Assembly: GCF_016862555.1 (NCBI RefSeq)
Contig: NZ_BONE01000010.1
Coordinates: forward strand, 1-64,000
Source of the DNA: Asanoa siamensis
GTDB lineage: Bacteria > Actinomycetota > Actinomycetes > Mycobacteriales > Micromonosporaceae
Direction of reading: 5' to 3'
DNA length: 64,000 nucleotides
In this document: positions 4,220-5,249 of the stretch, piece after piece
Position numbering within the stretch: the stretch's first letter is position 1
Layout of the letters: every line of letters begins with the position of its first letter
The notes under the pieces: generated by a model
What the model saw: only the letters and a program-made list of their open reading frames with translations
What the model was told of the DNA's origin: nothing
Databases searched by the model: none
Translations under genes and position numbers: made by a program

Positions 4220-4510
4220 CGTGTGCCACCGAATTGCGCGCACCAACACGTTTAAGGGTGTGGATCATCCGTTACGACGTCGGGTTTTGCCATTAAACTA
4301 CCGCCGCGCGGTGGAGCGGCGGGCTGGACTTGAACCAGCATCCGACGATCATCGTCCACATCCGGTCGACTTGGTGCTCGGTGGCGAATGCTGAAGCTGG
4401 AGCGAGAGTCTGAGCTTCACCGCGGCTCCGCTGCACCACGTCCGTGAGACTGAGCTTCACCTTCAGCCTTGCGCCCTTCGGCGCACCCCTGCGCTCCCAC
4501 AGGGGCATCC
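4220..4510 (-). ncRNA. Structured RNA carrying a circularly permuted tRNA-like domain (Y-RNA/YrlA-like architecture)
   Basis: No ORF in this 268-nt gap between genes shows coding character. Read on the minus strand, four nested helices bring its halves together: 4378-4385 with 4225-4232 (GCCACCGA, 8 bp), 4371-4377 with 4240-4246 (GCACCAA, 7 bp), 4355-4360 with 4259-4264 (TGTGGA, 6 bp) and 4342-4347 with 4278-4283 (CGTCGG, 6 bp). They enclose a T-arm, a closed acceptor hairpin and a D-arm. The 5' part has further hairpins: CCCCTG/CAGGGG and TGCGCC-GAAG-GGCGCA, then GCTGAAG (4461-4467) with CTTCAGC (4390-4396). A strong hairpin terminator follows. Family knowledge: bacterial Y RNAs (YrlA) carry a permuted tRNA mimic on a stem made by their ends, usually beside a Ro60 gene, which is absent here. 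Exact 5' and 3' ends are not determinable by reading. Confidence 0.82.
4278..4347 (-). ncRNA. Circularly permuted tRNA-Gly-like domain
   Basis: In 5'-to-3' order on the minus strand: anticodon-stem 3' strand (4347-4342), T-stem GCTGG (4339-4335), T-loop TTCAAGT (4334-4328), CCAGC (4327-4323), acceptor 3' strand CCGCCGC (4322-4316), T73 (4315), CCA (4314-4312), 4-nt spacer CCGC (4311-4308), acceptor 5' strand GCGGCGG (4307-4301), T8 A9, D-stem GTTT (4298-4295), D-loop AATGGCA with G18 G19 and A21 (4294-4288), AAAC (4287-4284), C26 and stem (4283-4278). All seven acceptor pairs are Watson-Crick. G1:C72, C2:G71, G3:C70 and U73 match bacterial glycine identity, and the GCGG..TAGTTTAATGG stretch resembles tRNA-Gly(CCC/UCC). 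No normal anticodon loop can be formed. Confidence 0.85.
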
Positions 4511-4517
4511 AGGACGG

Positions 4518-5249
4518 CTACCCGAACAGGTAACCGAAGACGGCCGCGCCCACCCGCTGGTCGACGGCCTCGGCATTGTTGGCCTCCTCGCGCGCGAACT
4601 TCACCGCCGCCTGCAGGGCCACGACCCGGTCCAGGATCTCGTTGACCCGCTTGGCCGGCAGGGCACCGGAGAACTTCACGGTGGTCCAGTATCCGACCGC
4701 GACATCCTCGTAGTAGACCTCGACCTGCGCGGGGTGCTTGTCGGTGGCTTCCGCCTTGACGTGGTTGCGCGGCACCTTCTTGGTGCGGATCGTGCGGACG
4801 GGTTCCGTGCGCCAACTGTCGGTCGAGTCGTCCCGCACCCACGACTCGGCCGCGTCGAGCACCGGTAGCTTCTTGACGAACGTGTGCAGGTCGACCAACT
4901 GCTTCTCGAGGAACAGCAGGTACGTGACCGGCACGGCGGCGGCGACGGTGCGCCCGTCGACCACGATGTCGGCGCGGGCGGTGCAGTTGGCCCAGTCCTT
5001 GGTGGCGGTCACGTCGAACAGGCGCGTGAGCGTGTGCGAGACCTGCCGCAGGATCTCCTCGGCCTGGATCTGCACGCGGGTCGACTCGGGCGGCAACTGC
5101 TCGCCCTCTTCGTCCTTGGGCTGGTAGGTCCGCGAGATGCCGGCCAGCGGACCGGTCTTCTGCACGGCGTGGTGCGCGTCGGTGAGGTCCGCGAACGACT
5201 TACTCTTGACACTCTTCTCGACGGCGATGATCTGGTTGAGGCGCGCCAC
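4518..5249 (-). CDS. Conserved actinobacterial protein of unknown function (DUF7873-like), partner candidate of the adjacent RNA
   Basis: 243 residues from the GTG at 5249; a GTG at 5252 is also in frame, but AAGGAG at 5257-5262 is 7 nt from 5249. From memory it resembles a highly conserved hypothetical protein of streptomycetes and relatives (RLNQIIAVEK, GISRTYQPKDEEGEQLP, RADIVVDGRT, FVKKLPVLD, KAEATDKHPAQVEVYYED, C-terminal VGAAVFGYLFG). It looks soluble, has no signal peptide or TM segment, and has several Lys/Arg-rich patches (TIRTKKVPRNHVKAE). Function is unknown. The permuted tRNA-like RNA starts right behind its stop codon on the same strand, so an RNA-binding role is a reasonable inference but unproven. 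TAGCGT (5275-5280, minus strand) is a possible -10 box. Confidence 0.8.
   Translation of the reverse strand: MARLNQIIAVEKSVKSKSFADLTDAHHAVQKTGPLAGISRTYQPKDEEGEQLPPESTRVQIQAEEILRQVSHTLTRLFDVTATKDWANCTARADIVVDGRTVAAAVPVTYLLFLEKQLVDLHTFVKKLPVLDAAESWVRDDSTDSWRTEPVRTIRTKKVPRNHVKAEATDKHPAQVEVYYEDVAVGYWTTVKFSGALPAKRVNEILDRVVALQAAVKFAREEANNAEAVDQRVGAAVFGYLFG

Follow-up and report, generated by a model that had tools for sequence, protein, structure and literature searches.

The locus described here lies in a 64,000-nt stretch of Asanoa siamensis DNA (the window, in what follows), and it raises the question of whether a conserved protein of unknown function forms a single particle with the tRNA-like RNA encoded directly behind it, as a preliminary description proposed by analogy with Ro60 and its Y RNAs. 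The protein is specified by a 244-aa open reading frame with a GTG start (4518–5252, minus strand) in the ORF listing of the window. Its product matched a single Pfam family, PF25283 (DUF7873), with 388.8 bits against a cut-off of 27 (E 1.4e-116, residues 2–242 of 244), and shares 79–90% identity with the DUF7873 proteins of 80 Actinoplanes, Salinispora, Streptomyces and related loci; searches of NCBIfam, PHROGs and PADLOC gave no match. Directly 3' of the stop codon, on the same strand, follows a structured noncoding RNA of about 330 nt (roughly 4516–4187), which consists of hairpins and one permuted tRNA-like module in which the 3' half precedes the 5' half. The region 4240–4380 folds at z = -3.0 relative to dinucleotide shuffles. 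Both the protein gene and the RNA behind its stop codon, as first described, are thus real, although the span originally given for them (4220–5249) was too short at either end: the gene starts at 5252, and the RNA extends beyond 4220 to about 4187. The individual features, all on the minus strand, are as follows.

4516–4535, minus strand: hairpin GGUUACC-UGUUC-GGGUAGCC over the last codons and the stop codon; the complementarity is retained in relatives with an earlier stop codon.
4486–4505, minus strand: 5' hairpin CCCCUGU-GGGA-GCGCAGGGG; relatives have equivalent hairpins with a GAGCRC loop.
4389–4468, minus strand: P3 region, with the RRYTSA hexamer-repeat tract and its linker partner CUCAGACUCUCGCUCCAGCUUCAGCA; most relatives have a first permuted tRNA module (TLS1) here, the window a small hairpin.
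4240–4376, minus strand: core of 137 nt, the second permuted tRNA module (TLS2) on a Y-RNA-like stem, identified by model R1 (134 bits) and by covariation; the conserved internal loop of the stem reads GUCGACC on the 5' side and CUUAAACG on the 3' side.
4323–4339, minus strand: T-arm GCUGG-UUCAAGU-CCAGC.
4322–4301, minus strand: acceptor, with 3' strand CCGCCGC (4322–4316), loop UCCACCGC (U73-CCA-like) and 5' strand GCGGCGG (4307–4301).
4284–4298, minus strand: D-arm GUUU-AAUGGCA-AAAC.
4187–4219, minus strand: 3' terminal hairpin GAGGCCCAGGGAU...AUCCCUGGGCCUC with loop UGGACAU, which recurs in relatives; it is followed by no U-tract.

With regard to known RNA families, ARAGORN found no tRNA in the window RNA, and Rfam gave nothing at gathering score, the tRNA and tmRNA models included. 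The YrlA model (RF02553) matched with 28.4 bits, below its cut-off of 69 (E 4e-4 in 501 bases), while Lacto-usp, Twister-sister and other families appeared only as sub-threshold matches and were discarded.

The fold was examined with a covariance model, R1, that comprises TLS2 and its stem (137 positions). Among 28 diverse core sequences, 33 of the 35 base pairs were changed on both sides, and covariation over the whole core was 0.747 as compared to 0.240 in shuffles and at most 0.176 in slid controls. Since covariation within the T-arm and acceptor was partly selected by the module search, we relied on the outer stem, which was never used for sequence selection and gave 0.800 (0.266 in shuffles, at most 0.184 in slid controls), with its structure read from the same sequences and the species being non-independent samples. 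The 5-pair stem adjoining the tRNA module was weaker (56% paired cells), probably as a consequence of misalignment or real variability. The RNA accordingly has a conserved, covarying fold, in which one or two permuted tRNA modules sit on irregular stems together with conserved unpaired motifs and 6-nt repeats.

Next we surveyed how regularly this RNA accompanies the protein, the survey that had been put forward as a check on the pairing. It covered 80 genome-derived DUF7873 loci and 7 more obtained via Pfam, nine annotated phages, and 80 + 79 metagenomic viral loci that reach down to about 30% identity. R1 matched every one of the 87 genome-derived loci. Among the phage loci it matched 152 of 159, with 76/80 for the near set and 76/79 for the distant one, where a few matches were weak (25–30 bits); the matching phage loci belonged to actino-, proteo- and cyanophage-like groups. 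The misses were L116, L117, L144 and L173 (the last at a contig end) in the near set, and L316 together with L330 and L359 (both at contig ends) in the distant set. A similar picture was obtained with strict modules, i.e. permuted tRNA modules with 7/7 paired acceptor positions. Of 89 near phage loci, 76 had such a module within 1 kb behind DUF7873, at a background of 0.019 per kb in other same-strand sequence and 0.007 per kb antisense; in the distant phage loci the corresponding values were 64 of 79 (within about 1 kb), 0.0024 and 0.0020. The RNA is hence generally present beside homologues of the protein.

The linkage was also followed in the opposite direction, from the RNA to the protein. 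Because tandem identical tRNA genes generate many partial R1 matches, full-length matches alone were counted, and in actinobacterial genomes these had to be high-scoring (at least 60 bits). Full-length R1 matches and DUF7873 were found in the identical 7 of 396 actinobacterial genomes. In the window's family, 79 of 150 genomes had both, 69 had neither, one had the protein alone (a DUF7873 fragment, in G458) and one the RNA alone (G505). A further genome counted as having both, G461, carries an intact RNA beside a DUF7873 gene reduced to its C-terminal 34 residues. Neither component was present in the five further genomes sampled from the genus to which the window belongs. When 120 viral loci were fetched by an RNA motif alone, 9 full-length RNAs were obtained, with DUF7873 in the same 9; some of these loci recur from the earlier set, and related genomes are non-independent, so that Fisher values for the linkage serve as effect sizes only.

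These reciprocal surveys refute the idea that the RNA merely sits beside an unrelated gene by chance or hitch-hiking, as tRNA fragments left by an integrase or as tandem tRNA genes. Tandem identical tRNA genes do match the model partially, but full-length, high-scoring matches occur almost exclusively with DUF7873, the fold covaries, and the linkage holds across phages of unrelated hosts; what probability remains for coincidence is negligible. The DUF7873 gene and the RNA co-occur with hardly an exception, and far more widely than the preliminary description envisaged: most relatives have two modules, the RNA exceeds Y RNAs in size, and the unit is widespread in phages with tRNA arrays.

Such linkage could also arise if the RNA were a cis-acting element in the 3' UTR that stabilises, processes or autoregulates the DUF7873 mRNA (for example by RNase P cleavage, or by feedback of DUF7873 on its own message) with no role in trans. 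The RNA normally begins at the stop codon or inside it, on the strand of the gene, that is, in the 3' UTR, and a promoter-like site in front of the window RNA was not found, as this explanation would have it. However, the RNA lies upstream of the DUF7873 gene in L154, and on the opposite strand, 1.2 kb from the gene, in L139, which points to a separate unit rather than just a 3' UTR. The intact RNA beside a C-terminal protein remnant in G461 and the RNA without protein in G505 also speak against a purely cis-acting element, and known 3' UTR elements are far less elaborate. We therefore regard a cis-only function as unlikely.

The composition of the RNA in relatives bears on what it might do. 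A simple module scan revealed that most DUF7873 relatives have two permuted tRNA modules, TLS1 lying about 150 nt upstream of TLS2; TLS1 has been lost, and a short hairpin put in its place, in the window and in a number of Streptomyces. The acceptor loop starts with ACCA in 15 of 47 TLS1 and with UCCA in 13 of 47 TLS2, and encodes NCCA in 23/47 and 15/47, respectively. Since only about half of the TLS1 copies and a third of the TLS2 copies encode CCA, aminoacylation cannot be the common function. TLS1 is preceded by a tract of RRYTSA hexamers, with 2.4 per 60 nt as compared to 0.37 in shuffles, 46 of 67 successive spacings of exactly 6 and a lag-6 identity of 0.44 against about 0.22. The linker has a similar 6-nt periodicity (0.40), and in 36 of 43 cases a tract pairs better with its cognate linker than with a mismatched one, for which composition is a possible confounder. 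The hexamers may form short helices that purine loops interrupt, serve as a track for protein binding, or do both.

The acceptor loop of TLS1 has been invaded in some phages. In L105 it contains an HNH endonuclease gene (3857–4417, plus strand) with both acceptor strands intact and their pairing kept, and in L170 and L171 about 400 nt (approximately 3970–4350) are inserted, again with pairing kept; the L170 insertion, which was the one searched, has no Rfam match at gathering score. Insertions at this position would be tolerable for an RNA that is cut in the loop and functions as two pieces.

These properties invite the question of whether the locus encodes one or two real tRNAs in permuted form, or a two-piece tmRNA-like molecule, with RNase P and 3' processing opening the acceptor loop to give a product that would be charged and enter the ribosome. 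The frequent ACCA or UCCA at the start of the loops, as in permuted tmRNA, fits this explanation, as does the preserved pairing around the HNH gene in L105 and the insertion of about 400 nt in L170; so do G1-C72, C2-G71 and the U73-CCA-like loop of the window TLS2, which are as in tRNA-Gly. In contrast, the window RNA and its relatives have no anticodon loop, and the would-be anticodon ends run into long, irregular, covarying stems. Moreover, many Streptomyces TLS2 copies lack CCA (their loop being GCUCGA), the acceptor sequences are unconserved, and neither a tRNA or tmRNA match nor an apparent tag reading frame was seen. A genuine tRNA or tmRNA thus seems very improbable.

As to the protein, the AlphaFold model of the window DUF7873 (63 sequences) is a single domain of long helices and one long beta hairpin, with pLDDT 93.5 and pTM 0.77. 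Near-invariant basic residues are K15, R40, K116, R155, K157, K158, R161, R208 and R220, and the segment RTKKVPR belongs to these nearly invariant basic positions. On the basis of these residues and the co-occurrence, DUF7873 is predicted to bind the RNA. A sequence search of the PDB found nothing, Foldseek of the model against the PDB returned no chain at E ≤ 0.001, and VIA-align rows for the PDB had Z ≤ 7.1 with rmsd about 15, this lack of a structural match being no proof of a new fold. Two candidates were rejected as noise: Cas7 of Cascade, which gave the best Foldseek rows in the PDB (E 3e-3, probability about 0.1, TM about 0.1), and TolC, which gave VIA rows with rmsd about 15. Cas7 has a footprint of 6 nt, which recalls the 6-nt repeats of the DUF7873-linked RNA; no relationship is claimed. 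No confident match was found among viral structure models either. The only row with probability 1.00 among the top 50 viral models was BFVD A0A7M1RW91 from uncultured phage cr118_1 (TM 0.46/0.60, E 0.011), a possible remote relative of DUF7873.

A pairing of one protein with one repeat-containing RNA might also suggest a type III toxin-antitoxin system, in which DUF7873 would be toxic and the RNA would fold around it as antitoxin. The two-component linkage and its patchy co-gain and co-loss would be expected of such a system, and the repeated hexamers and the occurrence in phages agree with it. DUF7873 nevertheless matched no defence or toxin family in PADLOC, Pfam or PHROGs and no nuclease-like fold, and the single-component relics (G458, G505 and G461) and long vertical retention fit less well. 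We consider a toxin-antitoxin function distinctly improbable.

No other neighbouring gene is conserved at bacterial DUF7873 loci. In phages, tRNA genes around DUF7873 numbered 4.9 and 3.2 per 10 kb, as compared to 0.08 in random viral stretches that were not matched for phage size. All nine annotated phages have an unannotated stretch behind DUF7873, mostly of about 350–1,160 nt; in Keelan a short annotated gene precedes it, and the stretch in Vibrio D491 contains an annotated 31-codon ORF. Rfam searches at gathering score of sampled relatives left the RNA itself unmatched and gave no tmRNA match to it. Three further elements were observed. The tRNA array of Gordonia phage Phendrix (L090, 3075–3603) contains an Rfam tmRNA match of 89 bits that its record does not annotate as tmRNA; in Rhodococcus phage NiceHouse (L091, 6374–7246) a gene for a Band-7-like membrane protein lies two features downstream of DUF7873; and in Microcoleus phage My-WqHQDG (L094) the gap behind DUF7873 holds a HEARO RNA (RF02033, 5941–6150, 129 bits), with no clear permuted tRNA there by module scan or R1.

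Taken together, it is very likely that DUF7873 and its RNA assemble into a protein-RNA particle with no counterpart in the databases and papers searched. We think it rather probable that they make up one ribonucleoprotein unit similar to Ro60 and Y RNA, built on an unrelated protein, with tRNA modules that tether or decoy an enzyme. DUF7873 would bind the conserved stem loops, the repeat tract, or both; housekeeping enzymes (RNase P, CCA-adding, modifying or degrading enzymes) would see the modules as tRNA, and the particle would tether or decoy one such tRNA-handling enzyme. In phages, where it lies among tRNA arrays, it might protect or manage tRNAs during infection, and in actinobacteria the pair would be a patchily kept accessory cassette. 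More tentatively, the particle could represent an undescribed, widespread class of Ro60-independent ribonucleoproteins, whose scaffold, with up to two permuted tRNA mimics, captures tRNA-handling enzymes and, in phage tRNA arrays, sustains translation during infection.

The particle so proposed would provide DUF7873, a family of unknown function, with a concrete partner and a testable role, and it brings to light a large noncoding RNA that occurs in hundreds of phages and many actinobacteria and is unannotated in the phage records and the Rfam release checked. No mention of DUF7873 or its RNA was found in the literature within a search that had preprints and most subscription journals outside its scope, and the searchable literature yielded no paper on a permuted tRNA-like RNA in phages or Streptomyces. 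If the proposal is true, tRNA-mimicking ribonucleoproteins arose with more than one protein, and the role of the tRNA-like module, an open question for bacterial Y RNAs, can be asked independently of Ro60.

The independence from Ro60 was examined directly. TROVE (Ro60/Rsr, PF05731) had no match in the window's genome, and none was found in G000, G171 or G369. That the protein is an RNA partner in a Ro60-independent particle, as was first suggested, gains support from this and from the near-universal two-way linkage; the binding itself is the predicted part. Four of six tested Streptomyces genomes with DUF7873 have TROVE at a separate locus, and the two TROVE loci inspected (L390 and L391) have YrlA-like RNAs of their own (44 and 56 bits), so the Ro60 and DUF7873 systems are distinct and can coexist. 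The permuted tRNA-like RNAs near the TROVE/Ro60 gene lie at 470–571 in L391 and at 278–343 and 492–592 in L390, and are probably unannotated Streptomyces Y RNAs. Two further Streptomyces loci carry permuted tRNA-like RNAs on the minus strand (L185, 1240–1345 and 1500–1564; L186, 1241–1346 and 1500–1564). The RNAs of these four loci, which in most cases come in twos, score 30–56 bits on YrlA, under the Rfam cut-off of 69.

Several known systems share traits with the DUF7873 unit. Type III toxin-antitoxin systems likewise combine one protein with a dedicated, adjacent, repeat-containing RNA; here, however, the RNA is located 3' of the gene and has tRNA modules, and the protein matches no toxin family. 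Rfam also lists ornate phage RNAs, HEARO among them, that like the DUF7873 RNA are large, structured and often near tRNA genes, but HEARO was matched only as an element of its own behind DUF7873 in the Microcoleus phage, the DUF7873 RNA itself having no gathering-score Rfam match. Circularly permuted tRNA genes of algae and archaea (PMC3978253) have the same order of tRNA halves, whereas the DUF7873 RNA has no anticodon loop, occurs in bacterial and phage hosts, and holds its modules fixed within a larger RNA. Two-piece (permuted) tmRNA also places the 3' acceptor half first and tolerates large insertions in the joining loop, which often encodes CCA, as it does in about half of the TLS1 and a third of the TLS2 copies; it differs in that the DUF7873 RNA has up to two tRNA modules, a dedicated protein unrelated to SmpB, and neither a tmRNA model match nor an apparent tag reading frame.

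The closest parallel is to the Y RNAs. In bacteria, Y RNAs mimic tRNAs and have their genes next to that of Ro60/Rsr, and the Salmonella operon rsr-yrlBA-rtcBA contains two of them in tandem (PMC7790460); their tRNA-like domain has been proposed to act as a nuclease competitor (PMC7790460), and TROVE proteins are encoded by some jumbo phages (PMC7824862). YrlA (RF02553) with Ro60 resembles the DUF7873 unit in its stem-borne permuted tRNA-like module, whose acceptor is closed by a loop, and in the position of the RNA next to its protein gene, the tandem RNAs of Salmonella rsr-yrlBA being comparable to the two modules. In contrast to YrlA/Ro60, the partner is DUF7873 and not a TROVE protein, and the RNA is larger and has conserved motifs of its own. 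By the criteria of Ro60 and YrlA score the DUF7873 RNA is therefore not a Y RNA, but in architecture it is Y-RNA-like.
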